From contig NZ_FNUC01000003.1 in assembly GCF_900106035.1 (NCBI RefSeq), forward strand, positions 3,217,501 to 3,281,500: DNA of 64,000 nt, read 5' to 3'. Each line of letters begins with the position of its first letter. Position 1 is the stretch's first letter. The notes below the pieces were generated by a model. That model saw only the letters and a program-made list of their open reading frames with translations. It had not been told where the DNA came from and did no database searches. Of this stretch, positions 1-10,482 are shown one piece after another. The DNA comes from Jiangella alba (GTDB lineage Bacteria > Actinomycetota > Actinomycetes > Jiangellales > Jiangellaceae). The translations under genes were made by a program, and so were the position numbers.

Positions 1-65
1 TCGTCGCCGCCGGCGTCCAGAGCACGGTGGACCGCCTCGACGTCGCGAGCGAGCATCTCTGTCAT
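1..65 (-). CDS. 5' end of an unknown gene leaving the window
   Basis: On the minus strand an ATG at 65 opens a frame that reads MTEMLARDVEAVHRALDAGG and stays open to the window edge. An AGGGTGG-like ribosome site lies just upstream; a second ATG at 56 is possible. About 21 residues are visible, too few to assign a family. It is divergent from the lanthipeptide locus, so whether it belongs to that locus cannot be told. Confidence 0.4.
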   Translation of the reverse strand, partial: MTEMLARDVEAVHRALDAGGD

Positions 66-445
66 CTCGCCACCCTATCTGCTTTAACTGAACCATCTGC
101 AACAACTATGCGTGTTCCCGCCCACGTGGCCAGGCATCACTCTCGGCAGGCTCGGCGGAGAGCGGAGCGGCCGACGGACGCCGAACCCAGCCGCCCGGCG
201 CCGTCGTACCCAGCCTGCCCCAGTCTCACGAGCAAGATCGTCACGGCGATCGCACACGATCTCGGGCGTCGAATCCCAAGTCCTGCCTGAGCCACGGTGA
301 AGCGGCTCAGCGATGCTTCGAGACCTCCGCTCGCCGGGGCGACTTCGGCGGGTCAGGCCGCCTTCGCCGCAGGGTTCCAGACCATCCCCCGACGCCAGAC
401 ATCGCGCCTGGGCTGGATTCGTTGTGACCCACGGCCGCAACCGTA
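66..445. other. Intergenic stretch, no gene seen
   Basis: No reading frame here has convincing composition or a recognisable product. The stretch separates the minus-strand gene leaving the window from the lanthipeptide promoter at 446. A weak 6-bp stem (TGAGCC/GGCTCA) lies near 290-312. Confidence 0.5.
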
Positions 446-474
446 TTGTCAACCCCCTGTCCCAGGCCTACGAT
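446..474 (+). promoter_or_regulatory. Housekeeping sigma promoter for the lanthipeptide precursor
   Basis: A TTGTCA -35 box (446-451) and a TACGAT -10 box (469-474) are separated by exactly 17 bases, close to the sigma-70/HrdB consensus. Transcription would start near 481, about 28 bases before the precursor ATG at 509. The precursor's ribosome site is the G-rich run ending near 501. Confidence 0.65.
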
Positions 475-508
475 CGAATTGTCGATCATGTCAACGGGGG
501 GTTTGATC

Positions 509-703
509 ATGGCAGACAACGACCTCAGCGCTCGCCTGGACAGGCTCGAGCAGTTGCTGGGACTACAGCGCATGAACGTCTCCGCCGACGCCGAGGGCGG
601 CAGGGGGTTCGCCAACAGCGGTGTCTCCGATCACTGCGGCAACAGCACGTTCAGCAACCACTGCGCCGTCATGCGTGCCGAGCCCGAGGTCGCACCGCAG
701 TAG
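509..703 (+). CDS. Class III lanthipeptide precursor peptide with two SxxSxxC motifs
   Basis: This is a 64-residue peptide beginning MADNDLSARL. The ATG at 509 is preferred over the in-frame TTG at 446 because a G-rich ribosome site precedes it and 446 lies in the -35 box. Residues 13-20 (LEQLLGLQ) match the amphipathic leader helix of class III lanthipeptides, which binds the synthetase. The core holds S37-x2-S40-x2-C43 and S46-x2-S49-x2-C52, two copies of the Ser-Ser-Cys arrangement that becomes labionin or lanthionine plus dehydroalanine in this class. A tail of about 12 residues follows (AVMRAEPEVAPQ). The synthetase begins 42 bases downstream. Family assignment rests on leader, motifs and neighbour; the ring type is inferred. 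Confidence 0.8.
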   Translation: MADNDLSARLDRLEQLLGLQRMNVSADAEGGRGFANSGVSDHCGNSTFSNHCAVMRAEPEVAPQ

Positions 704-745
704 CCGTAGCGCGCCCGGCATCCACAACAGAACACCGCTCTCGCG

Positions 746-2251
746 ATGCGCGCGCCGCAGTTCTTCTGGCACCCGTACTTCTTCGAGCCGCTGGCCACGC
801 GCCCGCCGACGCAGGAGTACCGCGACCACCTCGCGCAACTGCTCCCGGACACGTGGCTGATCAGCCGCCACGACGTCTGGCTGTACGCCGCGCCTGAGAA
901 GGCCCCGGACACGACGCAGCGGCAACAGGGTTTCAAGATCCACCTGTCCGCCGTGCCGCAGACCGCCTCGGCCGTCCTCGACGTCGCCGTGCCGATCTGC
1001 GCCGAGCGGCAGGTCGACTTCAAGGTCGCGGGTGATCCCGTGATCGTGCAGATCCTGAACTCCAAGCGGCAGTCCCGCGGCGGATCGGGCAAGTTCATGA
1101 CGATCTACCCGCCGGACGACGACACGTTCCGGGACCTGATCGAGCGGCTGCACCAGGCCACCCGGACGGCGAAGCTGGCCGGACCGCGCATCCTGTCCGA
1201 TCGGCCGTACAAGGGCAGCTCGATCGTCCATTACCGCTATGGCGGGTTCGCCTCGCCCAGGCGGGTCAACCTCGACGGCACCCACACGCCGTGCCTGGTG
1301 TCGCCGAGCGGCGAGTACGAACCGGACGACCGGCGGCCCTACTTCCGGCTGCCCGGCTGGATCGAGGACCCGTTCGGCGGCAGCGGCGAGATCGACGTCG
1401 ACTCCTCGCTCACCCTGAACGGCCGGTACTCCATCCAGTCGGCCGTCAGCTTCTCGAACGCGGGCGGCGTCTACGCCGGCACCGACACGACCACGGGGAC
1501 GCCGGTGATCCTCAAGGAGGCCCGCCCCTGCACACATCAGTGGAGCATCGGCGACACCACCTGGGACGCCGTCGACCTGCTGCGCCGGGAACACGCCGTC
1601 CTGCGGCGGCTCGCCGGCCTGCCATTCGTCCCCGCGGCCGTCGAACTGTTCGAGGACAGCGGGCACACGTTCCTCGCCGAGCAGCGGCTGCCCGGCCAGG
1701 ACCTACGCGGCTACTGGGCACGGAACGAGATCATCCTGGCGCCCTACATCCGCCGGCCGCAGCGCTTGGCCCGTTGGCTGCCGCAGTTCCGGCACGTGGC
1801 GGAACGACTCGTCGCGATGGTGCTCACGGTGCACGAGCGGGGCGTGCTCATCGGCGACCTGTCGCCTGCGAACGTCCTGATCGACGACGCCGGCCGGCGG
1901 CTGGGTCTGATCGACTTCGAGAGCGCGATCACGGCCGACGACGGACCGGAGATGCGCGGGTTCGCGGCAGCCTGGCGCACACCGGGGTTCGCCGCGCCGG
2001 GCCGCGAGCAGCGCGGCGGACTCGGTCCGCACGACGACCTCTACGCCGCCGCCATGGTGCTCTACCACGCGGTCGTGCCGGTGAACCCGCTCTTCGCGCT
2101 CGACCCCGAAGCCATGCGACGGTTCCTCGACCGGTTCGTCGAACTCGGCGTGCCCGAACAGGTCCGGCGGCTCATCCTGCTGCTCTCCGATGGTGAGGCC
2201 CAGGCGGCCCGGACGCTGCTGCGCGAGTGGCGCGACGAGGTCGCGACATGA
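746..2251 (+). CDS. Class III lanthipeptide synthetase, lyase and kinase domains
   Basis: This 501-residue protein phosphorylates Ser/Thr of the precursor and eliminates the phosphate to give dehydroamino acids. Residues 1-170 match the class III lyase domain, including SGKFMTIYP (114-122) and GPRILSD...YRYGGF. A Ser/Thr-kinase-like domain follows, with candidate ATP lysine K257 (VILKEA), catalytic loop GDLSPANVL (D371, N376) and metal-binding D390 in LIDFE. The family usually carries a C-terminal LanC-like domain in the same chain. Here the chain stops after the kinase and the cyclase is a separate gene overlapping by four bases (ATGA). Either the enzyme is naturally split or an indel falls at the junction. 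Confidence 0.88.
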   Translation: MRAPQFFWHPYFFEPLATRPPTQEYRDHLAQLLPDTWLISRHDVWLYAAPEKAPDTTQRQQGFKIHLSAVPQTASAVLDVAVPICAERQVDFKVAGDPVIVQILNSKRQSRGGSGKFMTIYPPDDDTFRDLIERLHQATRTAKLAGPRILSDRPYKGSSIVHYRYGGFASPRRVNLDGTHTPCLVSPSGEYEPDDRRPYFRLPGWIEDPFGGSGEIDVDSSLTLNGRYSIQSAVSFSNAGGVYAGTDTTTGTPVILKEARPCTHQWSIGDTTWDAVDLLRREHAVLRRLAGLPFVPAAVELFEDSGHTFLAEQRLPGQDLRGYWARNEIILAPYIRRPQRLARWLPQFRHVAERLVAMVLTVHERGVLIGDLSPANVLIDDAGRRLGLIDFESAITADDGPEMRGFAAAWRTPGFAAPGREQRGGLGPHDDLYAAAMVLYHAVVPVNPLFALDPEAMRRFLDRFVELGVPEQVRRLILLLSDGEAQAARTLLREWRDEVAT

Positions 2252-3420
2252 CCGGCGATCCGGTGAACGCGTTCGCCGCACTGCGCGACGAGACCATCGA
2301 CTACGTGCTGGCGACCGCTCAACCGCACCGGGCGGATCGCCTCTGGCCGGCCGACGCCGCCGTCTACTCCACCAATCCGCTGAACGTCGCCTACGGCGCC
2401 TGCGGGCCGGCCCTGCTCCTGAGCCGGGCCACGGCGACCGTCCCGGGGCCGGTCGTCGACTGGATGCTGGCGCAGGAGATCAGCTCGGACTCCTACCCGC
2501 CCGGCCTGTTCTTCGGGCTCGCCGGCGTCGCGTCCACGTTCGCCGAACTCGGTCTGGTCGACGAGGCGGCACGCGTTCTGCGTGAGCAGCGACGCTCGCC
2601 GTTGCTCTTCACCGATCCCGGCATCGCCGTCGGTGCCGCCGGCTGGGGACTCACCGACCTCCAGTTGTACGCCGTCACGGGCGAGCAGACGTACCTGGAC
2701 TGGGCCGTCCGGGCCGGGAACCACCTGATCGAGACGGGCGTCCCGCGCGGTGACGGAACCGCTTGGCGGTGCGGCGTTGACGATCGGGTCCACTACGGGC
2801 TCGGCTACGGCGCGAGCGGCGTCGCCCTCTACCTCCTGCGCCTCTACCAGGCCACCGGCCTGGACGACTACCTGGTCGCCGCGGCGCGCGGCCTGGCGTT
2901 CGATCTCGACGCGCGGGTGGAGACGGACCTGGGCTGGCTGTGGCACCGGTTCGAGGGCGACGACATGCTGCGCCCCTACTGGCTGCACGGAAGCGCGGGT
3001 GTGGGCAGTGTCGTCGTCCGCTTCTTCGCGGCCACCCGCGACGAGCACTACGCGGCGCTGGCGGCGCGGATCTGCACCGATGCCTACGTGAAGTTCACCG
3101 TCAGCCCGGGCCTCTTCGACGGGCTGTCCGGCGTCGGCGAGCTGATGCTCGACCTGTCGCTGGCCACGGGCGAGCCGCACTATGCCGGCTGGGCGCTGGA
3201 TGTGGCGGAGACGATCTCGTGGTTCGCCGTCGCGAAGCCGCAGGGGACGGCCTGGCCGAGCCGGTCACTGGACAAGATCTCCAACGACTACGCCACCGGC
3301 GCGGCCGGCATCGGGCTGTTCCTCACCCGGCTGCTGCACGGCGGGCCGCGGCCGTTCATCGATCCGCTCGTTCCAGCCGGTGCCGTCGCCGCACGCGAAC
3401 CAGGTCCGTCGACCGTCTAG
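2248..3420 (+). CDS. Separate LanC-like cyclase lacking zinc ligands
   Basis: This 390-residue protein starts at the ATG in the ATGA overlap with the kinase gene. It has the glycine-rich repeats of the LanC alpha/alpha toroid (AYGACGPALLL, GLFFGLAGVAS, GLGYGASGVALYLL, WLHGSAGVGS, GLFDGLSGVGELML). The positions that in true LanC carry the zinc Cys (WCYG) and Cys-His (CHG) read WLHG and FDG, so the metal site is absent, as in class III and unlike class IV. It should assist ring closure on the dehydrated precursor. No transporter or leader peptidase is visible nearby, so export and leader removal must come from outside the window. Confidence 0.85.
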   Translation: MTGDPVNAFAALRDETIDYVLATAQPHRADRLWPADAAVYSTNPLNVAYGACGPALLLSRATATVPGPVVDWMLAQEISSDSYPPGLFFGLAGVASTFAELGLVDEAARVLREQRRSPLLFTDPGIAVGAAGWGLTDLQLYAVTGEQTYLDWAVRAGNHLIETGVPRGDGTAWRCGVDDRVHYGLGYGASGVALYLLRLYQATGLDDYLVAAARGLAFDLDARVETDLGWLWHRFEGDDMLRPYWLHGSAGVGSVVVRFFAATRDEHYAALAARICTDAYVKFTVSPGLFDGLSGVGELMLDLSLATGEPHYAGWALDVAETISWFAVAKPQGTAWPSRSLDKISNDYATGAAGIGLFLTRLLHGGPRPFIDPLVPAGAVAAREPGPSTV

Positions 3421-3615
3421 CTGATTCGTTGCCCTCCGGGTCGAGGAGGGTCACCCGGTGCTGCTCGTCCTGCACGGTGTCGGCACGCCGGGCACGAGGG
3501 CGAGCAGCCGGGCGACCTCGGCCTCCTGGCACAGCGCGATGGTCGAGCTGTTCATGACCGACGTCGTCGGCATGCCGGCCGAAGGCGAGCGGCTCGTTCG
3601 GCCTGACCAGGGCGC

Positions 3616-3636
3616 ACGAGGACTGAGGGTCCTCGT
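3616..3636. terminator. Hairpin between convergent genes
   Basis: An 8-bp stem (ACGAGGAC/GTCCTCGT) closes a 5-base loop. It lies between the 3' ends of the cyclase gene (+, ends 3420) and the secreted-protein gene (-, ends 3664), so it can terminate either. The bases from 3421 to 3615 hold no convincing gene. Confidence 0.5.
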
Positions 3637-3663
3637 ATGCCCCGCCCATCTGCCGCTCCGCTG

Positions 3664-5631
3664 CTATCGCCGCCTGATTTGCAGGCTGTAGCTCAGTGCC
3701 GATGCCGTGGAGGCGATGTCGAGATCGTGGATCGTGCGCTGCTGCGCTCCACTGAACAGCTTGGTGGCCGACGCGGTGAGCGTGATCCGCAACGGTGCCT
3801 CGAGACGCAGCTCGAACGTTCCGCCGGCTCGTGCGACCCTGATCCCGACGGCCTGGGCGGCGACGCCGTTCTCCACCGGCGCCGCGCCGCCGCCGGCCAC
3901 CAGCCACGTCACGTCGTCGCCGGGGGCGATGACCAGCGGAACCCGTTCCACGAACGAGGACTCGTTGGTCTCGATGTCGATGGCGAGTTTGTTCGGCAGG
4001 CAGTGGAACGTCTTCGCGACCGAACCGCCGCTGGGCTTGTAGGCGTAGTACGTGTAGTCGAACGGCACTGCCTGGCGGACGTCCCCGCGGATCTTGAACA
4101 TCCGCGACTCGGAGTCGACGAAGTCGCGCGACAGCCGGGTGGACCACACGCTGTCGGAGGCCATCTGCGTCGCGACGAAGGCGCCGGTCGTGTGGTGGTA
4201 GAAGAACGACGGCCCCTTCGGCACGGTGCTGCCCCGCGGGATGTTCCCGTGGTGGCTGCCGAAGTAGTAGCCCTGCCGGTTGACGAACAGGTAGTGCTGG
4301 TCGTAGCGGGTGTCGCTGCGGGCCTCGACGAACGGGCGGCCGAAGTACGGGAAGGAGCGGATCGCCCGCATGCGCTCGTCGTAGGTGGCGAAGTTCTGCA
4401 CCCGCTGCTCGGAGTACCAGATGTTCATCGGGTCGACGGGGTTGCCCATCGGCACGAGCGGCTCGGTCGCGGCCGCCCACGTCGAACGGAGCCCTTCGAC
4501 GTGTTCGCGGTGCCAGTTCAGCGCGACCGCGATGGGGCTGTCGGGCGCCCACACGTTCAGCAGGTCGGGATAGCTGCTCTCGTCGGTGGTGCGGACGGCG
4601 GGCAGCGAGCGCATGGACAGCCGCGTGGAGATGCCGTTGACGGTGAAGCCGGCGCCGTCGGGCTCCCACAGGTAGTTGAAGCGGCACCAGTCGAAATGCT
4701 TCAGCTGCATCTGCTTGAGCCGCTCGTCGCCGTTGAGCTCGTAGAGCCGCGCGAGCATCCGCGGTGTGACGTAGAGCGAGTAGTGGGCGTCGAATGCGGC
4801 GGCCTCGTAGAGGTGGCCCGCGCCGTCGCTCTGGGCGTTCTCGACGTAGTAGGTCAAGCGATCCTCGTAGGCACGCATGATGCGCCGCGGCAGCAGATCG
4901 CGCAGCATCCAGACGCCCATCAGCGCCGGGATCACCTGGTTGGAGAACTCCGGGCCGATGGTCCAGACGTCCTCGTTCGCCGGGTCGAGCATGTAGTCGG
5001 CGGCGCGTTCCAGCGCCGCCAGCACCTCGGAGCGGAGGTCGTCGGCCCAGCCCACGCTCTCCAGCAGCAGCGCGGTCTCGCCCAGGAACACCAGCGCGTA
5101 CGCGGTGACGTCACGGTTGCGGTCGACGTAGCTCCACGCCGGGAACCAGCCATCCGGGCCCTGCAGGGAGAGGTAGAACCGAATGCCCGCGTAGATGCGG
5201 TCGCGCAGCGCGGGGTCCAGATAGTAGGGATTCCACTCGCGCTGCTGGGTGTAGAACCAGGTCAGCGTGTAGACGCTCTGCTGGATGTTCGCGTTGTACG
5301 GGACGAGCGGCGTGCGCCAGTAGCCGCCGTTGAACCAGCCGTAGGTCTCCTCGTTCTCGAGGTCCATCTTGTTGGCGAGGTCGGGCAGCGTCACCAGGAA
5401 TCTGGCCAGCCGCTGCTCCTCCGCAGCGAACTGACCGCGCACCAGGGTCGCCGGGTCGTACGGCGCGACGGGGGCGAGCGGGCCGCCCACCGCGGCAGCC
5501 GGGCCCGCGGCCGCCGCCGTCCCGGTGTGCGAGCCGAGCACCAGTCCCGTCACGGCGGACGCGCCGAGGCCCATGAGCGTGCGCCGGGTGAGGCTGCCGC
5601 CCGGTGTGGCGGACGTGTCGTTCGGGTCCAT
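3664..5631 (-). CDS. Tat-exported protein, probable alpha/alpha-barrel glycan-active enzyme
   Basis: This is a 655-residue protein starting at the ATG at 5631 (MDPNDTS). Residues 14-42 form a Tat signal (LTRRTLMGLGASAVTG, then an Ala-rich h-region). The body is rich in Trp and Tyr with helical hairpin repeats (ETYGWFNGGYWRTP, SLQGPDGWFPAWSY, GETALLLESVGW), like (alpha/alpha)6 toroids of polysaccharide lyases and unsaturated glycosidases. The last third looks like a beta-sandwich. No catalytic signature could be assigned. A LacI-type operator lies 20-39 bases upstream, and the divergent regulator and fucosidase operon suggest it attacks the extracellular glycan whose sugars they import. The function is inferred. 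Confidence 0.6.
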   Translation of the reverse strand: MDPNDTSATPGGSLTRRTLMGLGASAVTGLVLGSHTGTAAAAGPAAAVGGPLAPVAPYDPATLVRGQFAAEEQRLARFLVTLPDLANKMDLENEETYGWFNGGYWRTPLVPYNANIQQSVYTLTWFYTQQREWNPYYLDPALRDRIYAGIRFYLSLQGPDGWFPAWSYVDRNRDVTAYALVFLGETALLLESVGWADDLRSEVLAALERAADYMLDPANEDVWTIGPEFSNQVIPALMGVWMLRDLLPRRIMRAYEDRLTYYVENAQSDGAGHLYEAAAFDAHYSLYVTPRMLARLYELNGDERLKQMQLKHFDWCRFNYLWEPDGAGFTVNGISTRLSMRSLPAVRTTDESSYPDLLNVWAPDSPIAVALNWHREHVEGLRSTWAAATEPLVPMGNPVDPMNIWYSEQRVQNFATYDERMRAIRSFPYFGRPFVEARSDTRYDQHYLFVNRQGYYFGSHHGNIPRGSTVPKGPSFFYHHTTGAFVATQMASDSVWSTRLSRDFVDSESRMFKIRGDVRQAVPFDYTYYAYKPSGGSVAKTFHCLPNKLAIDIETNESSFVERVPLVIAPGDDVTWLVAGGGAAPVENGVAAQAVGIRVARAGGTFELRLEAPLRITLTASATKLFSGAQQRTIHDLDIASTASALSYSLQIRRR

Positions 5632-5650
5632 CAATCCTCCTCGTCGAGTT

Positions 5651-5670
5651 CTGATGCAACGCTGCATCAG
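5651..5670. promoter_or_regulatory. LacI-family operator, site 1
   Basis: CTGATGCAACGCTGCATCAG is a near-perfect palindrome; only the central bases deviate. It lies between the divergent secreted-protein gene (start 5631) and the regulator (start 5728). A matching site lies at 6799-6818, identifying both as operators of this regulator. Confidence 0.8.
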
Positions 5671-5727
5671 GCTGGCACCAGGACCAGTTCGTGTCAAGAA
5701 GGCGTCGCGACACATAGGATTCGCGCA

Positions 5728-6759
5728 ATGGTGACCGTCAAGGAGATCGCGGCGGCCGCCGGAGTCTCGCCGACCGTGGTGTCGGCCGTCCTGCACGGCA
5801 GCCGGCACGTCCGCGTGAGCGAGGCCACCCGTGCGGTCGTCCTCGCGAAGGTCGAGGAGCTCGGCTACACGACGAACTTCGCCGCGCGCTCGCTGCGCAC
5901 CGCGCGTTCCGGCGTCCTCGCCGTCGTCGCGCCGAAGTTGAGCAACCCGGTCTTTACGCCCATGCTCGACGGCATCCACGACGCCGCCGAGGAGCGCGGC
6001 TACGTGATCATGCTGGCCGAGGCCATGCGGCTGGTCGACGGCTCGCGCATGCTGGAGCGCATCCTCGGCCACGGGCAGGTCGACGGCACGATCCTGCGGC
6101 CCAGCGCCGATCTCGACTCCGCCGGGGTCCGGTCGATGCTGCGCCGCGAGGCGCCGGTCCTCGTGCTCGACGAAGTGGACGACCGCACGACGCCCTGGCT
6201 GGCCATCGACGACGCCGCCGCCGCGCGCGTCGCCACCGAGCATCTGCTGGAACGCGGGCACACCCGCATCGGCTTCCTCGGCGGCTGGCTGGGTCCGCAT
6301 GCCACGTTCCGGCCGCGCAAGGGCTTCCGCCACATCAACCTGCGCCGTCTCGACGGCTACCGCCAGGCCCTGCGCGCGGCGGGCATCGAGCCACGCGACG
6401 ACGACGTCATCGAGTCCGACTTCGCCGCCAGCGCCGGGCGCGACGCCGTCGAGCGGATCGTGGCGCTGCGCGACCGGCCGACGGCGCTCGTCGTCAACAA
6501 CGCCACCACCTCCGTCGGCGTGGTCGGCGGCGCCATCACCGCCGGCCTGCGGGTGCCGGACGACCTCGCCGTCGTCGCCATCCACGACATCGACGTCCTG
6601 GCCGATGTCGCGCCCAGGATCAGCGCGGTCCGGATGCCGATGTACGAACTCGGCCACGTCGGCACGACGCTGCTCGCTCGGGCGATCGAGGGCGAGACCA
6701 TCCCGTCGCAGGTCCTGGCCTCGCCGCCACCAGAACTGCTGCGACGCGAGACCACCTGA
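5728..6759 (+). CDS. LacI-family transcriptional regulator of the glycan locus
   Basis: This 343-residue protein starts at the ATG at 5728. The N-terminal helix-turn-helix reads VKEIAAAAGVSPTVVSAVLHG, with a hinge helix near AARSLRTARS. The periplasmic-binding-protein-like effector domain contains LSNPVF, RIGFLGG and the family's AVVAIHDID segment. It most likely represses the flanking operons through the operators at 5651 and 6799 until a sugar, perhaps a fucosylated oligosaccharide, binds. Its gene sits between the exported protein and the pyruvyl-transferase/ABC/fucosidase operon. The ligand is inferred from the neighbours only. Confidence 0.88.
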   Translation: MVTVKEIAAAAGVSPTVVSAVLHGSRHVRVSEATRAVVLAKVEELGYTTNFAARSLRTARSGVLAVVAPKLSNPVFTPMLDGIHDAAEERGYVIMLAEAMRLVDGSRMLERILGHGQVDGTILRPSADLDSAGVRSMLRREAPVLVLDEVDDRTTPWLAIDDAAAARVATEHLLERGHTRIGFLGGWLGPHATFRPRKGFRHINLRRLDGYRQALRAAGIEPRDDDVIESDFAASAGRDAVERIVALRDRPTALVVNNATTSVGVVGGAITAGLRVPDDLAVVAIHDIDVLADVAPRISAVRMPMYELGHVGTTLLARAIEGETIPSQVLASPPPELLRRETT

Positions 6760-8146: not shown

Positions 8147-9541
8147 ATGCGAACCGCAACGAAGCGCTCGTCCACACTCGCCGTCCTGCTCGCGCTGACG
8201 CTCGGCGTCGCGGCCTGCGGCGGCGACGGCCAGGACGATCCCACCCGGCCGGCCGCCGACGAAAGCGTCGATCTGGACGCCGACGTCACCATCACCGTCG
8301 GCGACCTGCCGCCGGCCAGTGAGCCCGAGGAACGGGAGTTCTTCGAGGGCCAGGTCGAGGCGTTCACGGCGGCCAACCCGAACATCACCGTCGAGGCCAG
8401 CGAGGAGCTCTGGGACGTGCAGACGTTCCAGGCCAAGGTCGCCGCCGGCGATCTGCCGGACGTGCTCGCGGTGCCGTTCACCGAGGCGAACTCGCTCGCC
8501 GAGCGTGGCCAGATCGCCGAGCTGTCCCAGGCCATGGACCTCGCCGGGCTGACAGCCGACCTCGACCCGAACCTCGTCGAACTGGTCAGCTCCGACGACG
8601 GCGGTGTCTACGCCGTCCCGACCGCGGCCCAGGCGCTGGGCCTCATCTACAACCGCGACCTGTTCGTCCAGGCCGGCCTCGACCCGGACGACCCGCCGCG
8701 GACCTGGGACGACGTTCGCGTGGCGGCCCGGCAGATCACCGAGGCGACCGGCGCCACCGGGTTCGCCACCATGACGACGGAGGGCCAGGGCGGCTGGATG
8801 CTGGCCGCCGGTGTCTACAGCTTCGGCGGCACGATCGAGAACGAGGACGGCACCGAGGCGACCTTCGACGACCAGCCGGCGACCGACTACCTGGAGCTGC
8901 TGCATGCCATGCGCTGGGAGGACCAGTCCATGGGCAGCAACTTCCTCTACAACGCCGCCGGACTGGTGGAGGACTTCGCGGCCGGCCGGGTCGGCATGTT
9001 CATCGGCTTCTCCGGGCTCTACCGACCGGCCGTGATCCGCAACGAGATGCCCGCCGAGAGCTTCGGCATGGGCCCGATGCCTGTCGGCGGCCACGCCGAC
9101 CCGACCGCCCTCACCGGTGGCGTCATCCAGGTCGTGAGCCCCGACGCGACGCCCGAGGAACGGGTCGCGGCGGTGAAGTGGATCGACTTCTTCTACCTCG
9201 GCCAGTTCACCGACGAGACGGTCGCGGTCACCCAGGCCGAGGCCGGCGCCGCGGCCGGTCAGGCGGTCACCGTCCCGGAGCGCCCGGCGGTGAGCCAGGA
9301 TGCGTACGACCAGTACTTCGAGTGGATCGCGCCGTACCTGAACGTGCCGATCGCCAACTTCGACACCTACATCCAGGCGTTCGGCGAGCAGACCCTGCAG
9401 CCCGAGCCGGCGGTGAAGGCGCAGGAGGTCTACAGCCAGCTGGACGTCGTCGTCCAGCAGGTGCTCACCGAGGAGAGCGCCGACGTCGGCACCGTGCTGG
9501 GCGAGGCGGCGACCGCGGTCGATCGGCTGCTGGGCCGGTGA
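8147..9541 (+). CDS. ABC sugar transporter, extracellular binding lipoprotein
   Basis: This 464-residue protein has a lipoprotein signal, MRTATKRSS then a hydrophobic stretch ending in the lipobox VAAC. Cys26 would be lipidated and anchor it outside the membrane. The mature part is a family 1 (MalE-like) binding protein with VPTAAQALGLIYNRDLF and a GGVIQVVSPDATPEERVAAVKWIDFF segment. It delivers a sugar or oligosaccharide to the two permeases immediately downstream. AGGAG precedes the ATG. The gene ends in a GTGA overlap with the first permease, so the two are translationally coupled. Confidence 0.9.
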   Translation: MRTATKRSSTLAVLLALTLGVAACGGDGQDDPTRPAADESVDLDADVTITVGDLPPASEPEEREFFEGQVEAFTAANPNITVEASEELWDVQTFQAKVAAGDLPDVLAVPFTEANSLAERGQIAELSQAMDLAGLTADLDPNLVELVSSDDGGVYAVPTAAQALGLIYNRDLFVQAGLDPDDPPRTWDDVRVAARQITEATGATGFATMTTEGQGGWMLAAGVYSFGGTIENEDGTEATFDDQPATDYLELLHAMRWEDQSMGSNFLYNAAGLVEDFAAGRVGMFIGFSGLYRPAVIRNEMPAESFGMGPMPVGGHADPTALTGGVIQVVSPDATPEERVAAVKWIDFFYLGQFTDETVAVTQAEAGAAAGQAVTVPERPAVSQDAYDQYFEWIAPYLNVPIANFDTYIQAFGEQTLQPEPAVKAQEVYSQLDVVVQQVLTEESADVGTVLGEAATAVDRLLGR

Positions 9542-10482
9542 CGGTGACGGCGCCCGCCGCGCTGGAGGCCGCGGCACCGCCGCGGCCCCAGCCCTCGCGG
9601 CGCGGCACACTGCGGTCGTGGGTGGCCCGCGGCGGGCTCACGAAGATCGCCTTCGCGCTCCCGCTGCTGTTCATCTTCGGGTACTTCTCGTGGTGGCCGA
9701 TCCTCGACGGCGTCGCGATGTCGGTGCAGCGCACCAACCTCGTCGACCCCGCCGAGTTCGTCGGCTGGAGCAACTTCAGCTACGTGCTCAGCGATCCGCT
9801 GCTGCCCAAGGCGATCGGCAACACGATCCTCTTCGCCGTGCTGTCGCTGCTGATCGGGTTCCCGGTGCCGCTGCTGCTGGCGACGTTCATGGCCGAGCTG
9901 CGCGGCGCCCGGCGCCTGTACAGCGTGCTGGCGTACCTGCCGGTGATCATCCCGCCGGTGGTGGCCGTGCTGCTGTGGAAGTTCTTCTACAGCCCGGAGC
10001 CGACCGGCCTGTTCAACACCGTCCTCGGCTGGTTCGGCGCCGGCCCGTTCGCCTGGCTGAACTCGGCCGGCACCGTGCTGCCGGCGATCGTCGTGGAGGC
10101 GACCTGGGCGTACTTCGGCAGCACGACGATCATCTACCTCGCCGCGCTGACGGCGGTGCGGCGGGAGCTCTACGAGGCGGCCGAGATCGACGGCGCCGGC
10201 ATCGTCCGCCGCACCTGGCACATCACGCTGCCGCAGATTCGCGGCGTCGTGCTGGTGATGCTGCTGTTGCAGGTCATCAACACGATGCAGGTGTTCACCG
10301 AGCCGTTCGTGTTCACCGGCGGCGGACCGAACAACGCGTCGACGACCATCCTGCTGATGATCTACGAGTACGCGTTCATCGAGGGCGACTACGGCGCGGC
10401 CACCGCGCTGTCCGTCCTGCTCGCGCTGTTCCTGGGCGTGGTCTCCGCCGTGTACTTCGCCGCCACCCGGAGGCTGAACTGA
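9538..10482 (+). CDS. ABC sugar transporter permease, MalF/UgpA type
   Basis: This 314-residue inner-membrane protein starts at the GTG overlapping the stop of the binding-protein gene. It has about six transmembrane helices, the first being IAFALPLLFIFGYFSWWPIL. The cytoplasmic EAA loop reads ELYEAAEIDGAGIVRRTWHITLPQI and docks on the ATPase. The C-terminal region ITTGGP-like FTGGGPNNASTTILLMIYEYAF is typical of this subfamily. It pairs with the next permease. No ATPase gene occurs in the locus. Confidence 0.9.
   Translation: MTVTAPAALEAAAPPRPQPSRRGTLRSWVARGGLTKIAFALPLLFIFGYFSWWPILDGVAMSVQRTNLVDPAEFVGWSNFSYVLSDPLLPKAIGNTILFAVLSLLIGFPVPLLLATFMAELRGARRLYSVLAYLPVIIPPVVAVLLWKFFYSPEPTGLFNTVLGWFGAGPFAWLNSAGTVLPAIVVEATWAYFGSTTIIYLAALTAVRRELYEAAEIDGAGIVRRTWHITLPQIRGVVLVMLLLQVINTMQVFTEPFVFTGGGPNNASTTILLMIYEYAFIEGDYGAATALSVLLALFLGVVSAVYFAATRRLN

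Follow-up and report, generated by a model that had tools for sequence, protein, structure and literature searches.

Class III lanthipeptide synthetases have been described as single proteins that perform both dehydration and cyclisation (PMC7268733). A locus of different layout is described here, in which a precursor gene is followed by separate lyase-kinase and cyclase genes. It lies in a 64,000-nucleotide stretch of the soil actinomycete Jiangella alba (RefSeq GCF_900106035.1, contig NZ_FNUC01000003.1, positions 3,217,501-3,281,500 of the forward strand), which is referred to throughout as the window.

The nearest characterised enzyme is ThurKC, which shares with the window proteins a lyase, a DFE kinase and a cyclase without zinc, and whose domain boundary coincides with the site of the window split (PMC10604976). 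ThurKC differs in being one natural polypeptide, and its activity in trans was observed by mixing excised domains with a truncated substrate: when the protein was cut at 486/487 the lyase-kinase alone gave no modification, and the mixed pieces modified the truncated substrate without a stable complex being seen (PMC10604976). Among solved structures, ThurKC matched the window lyase-kinase best by sequence; for the window cyclase it ranked first by Foldseek and tied with CuvL by VIA-align. Labyrinthopeptins and their synthetase LabKC follow the same S-x2-S-xn-C labionin logic as the window precursor but have a longer spacing to Cys and a fused enzyme. Like the window peptide, the SapB/AmfS-type durhapeptin has an LxLQ-type leader and a tandem pair of S-x2-S units, but its motif is SXXSXXXC (three residues before Cys rather than two), it is made by one DurKC enzyme and its cluster contains a transporter gene (PMC13380574). 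Noursin, whose source also mentions the use of LabKC, resembles the window system in its class III enzyme and its core His, and differs in a labionin plus His-butyrine crosslink, S-x3-S spacing, a single NorKC, and a cluster that includes an S9 protease and a transporter (PMC10206099). The window peptide has T47 and H42/H51, candidate residues for the His-to-butyrine crosslink made by LanKC-Hbt of the noursin type, but their spacing is unlike that in noursin. Class I systems likewise use separate proteins for dehydration and cyclisation (LanB and LanC; PMC7268733), but with an unrelated glutamylating dehydratase and a zinc cyclase.

The window locus was interpreted, with a probability of roughly 0.86, as a three-gene class III-type lanthipeptide cassette with a two-protein synthetase acting in trans and a predicted two-ring lanthionine/labionin peptide as product.

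Gene layout and enzyme class

Three same-strand genes, in the order precursor, lyase-kinase and cyclase, were identified from the sequence and its open reading frames (ORFs). The features are as follows.

446..474, + strand: candidate sigma-70-like promoter TTGTCA-N17-TACGAT, 9/12 consensus matches; homology to Jiangella endophytica begins at 446
509..703, + strand: precursor peptide, 64 aa, with leader LEQLLGLQ, S37/S40/C43 and S46/S49/C52, and a His before each Cys
746..2251, + strand: stand-alone lyase-kinase, 501 aa (RamC_N, 190 bits; protein kinase, Pkinase, 47.6 bits), matching NF038151 at 8-453 of 833
2248..2251, + strand: ATGA stop/start overlap of the lyase-kinase and cyclase genes, from the ORF reading; GTGA in Jiangella endophytica
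2248..3420, + strand: stand-alone LanC-like cyclase without zinc ligands, 390 aa, with a LANC_like match

The lyase-kinase gene starts with ATG at 746 and stops with TGA at 2249-2251, and the cyclase gene starts with ATG at 2248, giving an overlap of four bases. An earlier, sequence-only reading of this DNA had described this split and overlap, the positions of the core Ser and Cys residues, a class III type and a cyclase lacking LanC zinc ligands, all of which were borne out. Its precursor length of 64 residues also held, but its start at 446 did not: the ATG is at 509-511, and 446 is an upstream TTG that coincides with the -35-like hexamer.

Together, the two proteins covered the NCBIfam class III LanKC model NF038151 at 8-453 and 485-832 of 833 positions. 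Simple addition of the scores of the two halves gave 679 bits (cut-off 575); each half alone fell under the cut-off, which is the expectation for half an enzyme. In keeping with class III, a RamC_N-type lyase and a protein kinase with a DFE motif were found on one protein, and the Cys/Cys/His zinc ligands were absent from the cyclase, where L246, F290 and D291 occupy the ligand positions. Neither the two Cys nor the His was present at these columns in any of the 21 cyclases of the clade described below. The single-protein character of class III is lacking: two ORFs are present rather than one, and the locus was therefore labelled a split variant of class III rather than a plain member. K107, K116, K257, E282 and D390-F391-E392 are present in the window lyase-kinase and were paired, in alignments, with K108, K117, K257, E279 and the DFE motif of ThurKC, residues that have been tested in that enzyme (PMC10604976).

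Two other classes were considered. Class IV (LanL) was rejected because the zinc-binding Cys/Cys/His are missing and because the class IV model scored lower than the class III model for both halves (sum 581 bits, cut-off 650). In class V the kinase and lyase are on separate proteins and, to our knowledge, there is no LanC-like cyclase; this class was rejected because RamC_N and Pkinase share one protein and LANC_like is present.

Conservation of the split and of the core

On present evidence the split is genuine rather than a sequencing error, because Jiangella endophytica (locus L005) keeps the genes and the overlap and because the wider clade is mostly split. The same three genes occur in L005, where the enzyme genes overlap by GTGA. 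Protein identity between the two species was 77% for the lyase-kinase and 80% for the cyclase, and nonsynonymous and synonymous divergence (dN/dS) were 0.14/0.49 and 0.12/0.41, respectively.

Relatives were collected from protein searches and from named genomes. Among the matches listed (120 of 170) in the lyase-kinase protein search, P0001-P0093, the window's own included, were 414-559 aa long and had RamC_N without LANC_like, some short rows possibly being contig-end fragments; P0095 was the first row carrying LANC_like. The cyclase protein search was limited to 0.55-1.75 of the query length, which excluded fused enzymes and gives it little bearing on the split. Of 533 pattern-matching stretches in named genomes, 453 encoded relatives; the best 80 were kept, and 16 of these had a separate lyase-kinase. 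Two more such loci come from the window and L104. A doubtful split locus is L035, whose parts share one frame with a stop between them and which lies outside the window's clade.

The window fell within a 21-row clade of 17 split and 4 fused rows (Shimodaira-Hasegawa-like approximate likelihood ratio test, SH-aLRT, 90; second tree 91/90). Clade members are labelled Actinomycetota, Chloroflexota, Pseudomonadota, Bacteroidota, Acidobacteriota, Gemmatimonadota and Myxococcota, several of them coming from metagenome bins. At least four changes between split and fused were required on a 28-row tree, three of which the well supported branches make unavoidable, and a tree constrained to group all split rows was rejected (approximately unbiased test, p-AU 0.00175; group chosen after the first tree was seen). 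Some rows had odd composition, the branch of L019 was long, and the tree does not show which way the changes between split and fused went. The order precursor-kinase-cyclase was seen in the window, L005, L006, L008 and others, precursor-cyclase-kinase in L021 and L022, and cyclase-precursor-kinase in L014; the cyclase is on the opposite strand in L007 and 2.8 kb further on in L017, and L006, L008 and L018 each carry their parts in a single frame interrupted by a stop. Distances among lyase-kinases correlated with those among cyclases (Mantel r 0.96, n=21 with 4 fused rows among them; 0.94, n=16 with near-copies removed), the pattern of partners travelling together. A fused relative nested in this group, L009, has the core STLSIGCSTYSLGC, nearly equal to STQSIGCSTYSVAC of the split loci L010, L011 and L104.

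The window precursor has both the LxLQ-type leader and the SxxSx{2,5}C core of the published class III definition (PMC11251773), in which range a spacing of two is the short end. Curated class III precursor models fitted it below cut-off (NF038159, 22.5 bits against 30; RamS, 17.9 against 24.3). Against J. endophytica the precursor gene showed 19 synonymous changes, 3 nonsynonymous ones and a gap of one codon (dN 0.021, dS 0.69); all 3 nonsynonymous changes were in the first 32 aligned codons and none in the remaining 31, which include the core. The core is under selection. The two S-x2-S-x2-C units also contain T47, which brings their Ser/Thr residues to five, so that four water losses are not the sole expectation.

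A protein search with the window precursor gave no match beyond the window's own protein, and the precursors of relatives were therefore taken from an ORF scan of the fetched loci. The ORF rule was blind to spacing and was applied around 84 loci, of which 15 had no ORF and several more had unlikely ones alone; the choice was made by eye. At least one [ST]-x2-[ST]-x2-C motif was found in 21/21 clade loci and two in 18/21, counts in which the near-copies window/L005, L010/L011/L104, L021/L022 and L015/L016 are not independent. The exceptions were L012 and L017, with one x2 and one x3 motif, and L020, with a single motif; motifs of L015, L016 and L019 were less regular than those of other members. 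Outside the clade, twin tight motifs were seen in L033 and L036, and single ones in the gamma-proteobacterial loci L026-L028 and L042 (WSTISNHC) and in L049, L061, L067, L072, L074 and L077, among others. SapB/AmfS-like loci (e.g. L050, L052, L060, L063, L069, L082) had three residues before Cys. The twin S/T-x2-S/T-x2-C arrangement is thus typical of the clade, though single tight motifs exist beyond it. The tight spacing noted in the sequence-only reading is indeed present twice, but as a clade rule, seen singly elsewhere and within the published range, it is not peculiar to the window peptide; the motif also recurs beside separate lyase-kinase and cyclase genes in J. endophytica and other split members of the clade, and the split is not unique to the window genome.

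Chance occurrence was assessed in 1.54 Mb comprising the window and 80 related loci, a set selected for LanKC-type genes. A leader followed by a serine-only twin S-x2-S-x2-C occurred 20 times, and every occurrence lay no more than about 1.5 kb upstream of a gene for a lyase-kinase, a cyclase or a fused enzyme; copies resampled under a first-order Markov model (4.63 Mb) contained none. When no leader was required, the serine-only twin occurred 27 times (six unrelated by eye) against 2 in the resampled copies. The clade loci with the form S-x2-S-x-HC were the window, L005, L007, L021 and L022; beyond the clade, L026-L028, L042, L049, L061 and L077 also had it.

Some further precursors were observed. 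The gamma-proteobacterial loci L026-L028, L031 and L042 have 1-8 tandem precursor copies upstream of a fused LanKC, each with a single tight motif (WSTISNHC, WSTFSVNC). In Nonomuraea cypriaca (L007), a second precursor-like tail, GNSTISNHCLEAQK, lies at 9691-9894 after a run of N, and this species may have two precursors. Identical precursors (L021 262-405 and L022 4805-4948) and near-identical lyase-kinases were found in metagenome bins labelled Bryobacterales and Gemmatimonadetes, through either mis-binning or recent transfer.

Cassette boundaries and neighbourhood

Similarity to the 21.5-kb J. endophytica locus extended from window 446 to 3365 at 82.6%, starting at the -35 box, and the flanks were unrelated except for one 79-base match elsewhere. 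Shared DNA within unrelated flanks indicates a portable three-gene cassette. Across 12 Jiangella genomes the lyase-kinase was found at high similarity in two, the window's own (G000) and G007, whose match coordinates are those of L005; G003, G005 and G006 had distant matches alone, in frames of about 900 aa. The window's own genome had one LanKC-type match, three others being weak matches in the kinase part. At class level 3/393 genomes matched at 1e-90, the window's own included. No empty insertion site was seen among the genus genomes; in G004 the upstream and downstream flanks are on separate contigs.

A single sigma-70-like site was detected between 300 and 3700, where shuffled sequence gave 0.1 on average, and is a candidate promoter by consensus match. 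An inverted repeat, GATCGA-ATTG-TCGATC, at 472-487 overlaps the end of the -10 box and is imperfect in J. endophytica; it is possibly an operator, or a chance occurrence. Nothing in window 1-6000 reached the Rfam gathering score. The 106 bases immediately after the cassette (3424-3529) were 97% identical to G000:C4:2042060-2042166 in the same genome and 89-96% identical to sequences in G002, G009 and G010, and are a gene fragment or a repeat at the cassette edge. A 655-aa ORF on the minus strand (3664-5631) had no Pfam match at 0.001; its DNA was 87-89% identical in G004 and G007, at places away from any such cassette.

Of eight proteins encoded upstream of the window cassette or immediately after it, none was recognised as a lanthipeptide transporter or leader protease, nor was any of three encoded further downstream (a LacI regulator, a sugar-type importer solute-binding protein at 8147-9541 and an alpha-L-fucosidase). 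The same was true of 30 neighbour proteins of 12 relatives (7/30 without a Pfam match), which were chosen by a simple ORF rule from part of each neighbourhood, so that absence is not proven. Neighbours of the window and the 12 relatives comprised regulators, oxidoreductases, a helicase, hydrolases and the sugar-type solute-binding protein, and no gene common to these neighbourhoods was recognised. A transposase-like match near L007 was under its cut-off. Class III clusters often have no protease (PMC8960859).

Proposed mechanism, alternatives and significance

The joint activity of the two proteins is inferred, as are the type of ring, export, removal of the leader and the biological role, and the following route is proposed. 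The leader helix LEQLLGLQ would dock the precursor onto the lyase-kinase, whose kinase would phosphorylate S37, S40, S46, S49 and perhaps T47. Removal of phosphate by the lyase would give dehydroalanine, or dehydrobutyrine at T47. The separate, zinc-independent cyclase would join in trans and add each Cys to the dehydroalanines of its own S-x2-S-x2-C unit, giving two small, non-overlapping lanthionine/labionin rings, after which the leader would be cut off by an enzyme encoded elsewhere. Translational overlap of the enzyme genes would favour equal amounts of the two proteins. The structural model of the window cyclase aligned to ThurKC 487-862, i.e. from the experimental cut onward. By analogy with the ThurKC pieces, which were active when mixed without a stable complex, the natural pair may form a transient complex assembled on the peptide.

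Three alternatives were weighed against this route. One-base errors can split a frame in GC-rich DNA, and an error in sequencing or assembly, or decay of a fused gene, would agree with the single-protein description of class III given at the outset. This explanation is extremely improbable, given an overlap retained in a second species with another start codon (ATGA and GTGA) at 77% and 80% identity, dN well under dS in both enzyme genes, and members with different gene order or an opposite-strand cyclase. A correction at 2230-2260 restoring one continuous frame, which the sequence-only reading had named as grounds for refutation, is very unlikely in view of J. endophytica and the wider clade. 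The cassette might instead yield dehydrated, largely uncyclised peptides, the cyclase serving mainly to activate the lyase-kinase; mutations in the ThurKC cyclase impair dehydration and its lyase-kinase alone is inactive (PMC10604976). We consider this improbable, as Cys is present at tight spacing in precursors of all 21 clade loci, and window F290/D291 are at ThurKC F770/D771, where replacement by Ala left no ring signal (PMC10604976).

The His preceding each Cys (SDHC, SNHC) gives a somewhat stronger, still unlikely, case that metal binding or a His crosslink is involved and that the product departs from the ordinary lanthionine/labionin type. S-x2-S-x-HC recurs within and outside the clade, copper binding and a His-butyrine crosslink are known from noursin (PMC10206099), and SxxSxHHC peptides as well as an enrichment of His in peptides with a single Cys have been described (PMC11251773). 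Noursin, however, differs in spacing (S3, S7, residue 8, H11, C15) and synthetase, and the His is missing in most clade members (e.g. IGC, NNC, NGC). The two-protein cassette with a predicted two-ring product remained the preferred interpretation.

A broader proposal is put forward tentatively, at rather less than even odds: a phylum-spanning class III subclass with a minimal portable A-K-C cassette, a naturally two-protein synthetase that has repeatedly switched between the split and the fused state, a twin S-x2-S-x2-C core throughout the clade and neither transporter nor protease linked to it, in which the twin S-x2-S-x-H-C rings of the window's branch could bind metal.

No description of a naturally split LanKC was recognised in searches of open-licence PubMed Central (PMC) papers. 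Several such proteins are named 'class III lanthionine synthetase LanKC N-terminal domain-containing protein' by NCBI and are thus already catalogued. Given its recurrence in several phyla, the class III variant with a naturally split synthetase looks real and little noticed. Under the published rule, class III or IV is assigned when the LanC-like protein itself matches a kinase model, so that split loci would be 'unclassified' there; 1392 were left in that category after filtering (PMC7268733), and some of them may be of the split type. Class III synthetases are described as one protein with three cooperating active sites. The evolved two-protein pair allows study of the puzzle of ThurKC activity in trans, alongside the fused L009 with its near-identical core. 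If the subclass proposal is true, mining rules based on one protein would leave such loci unclassified. The predicted compact twin-ring cores are, as far as the searched literature shows, an unexplored product family.
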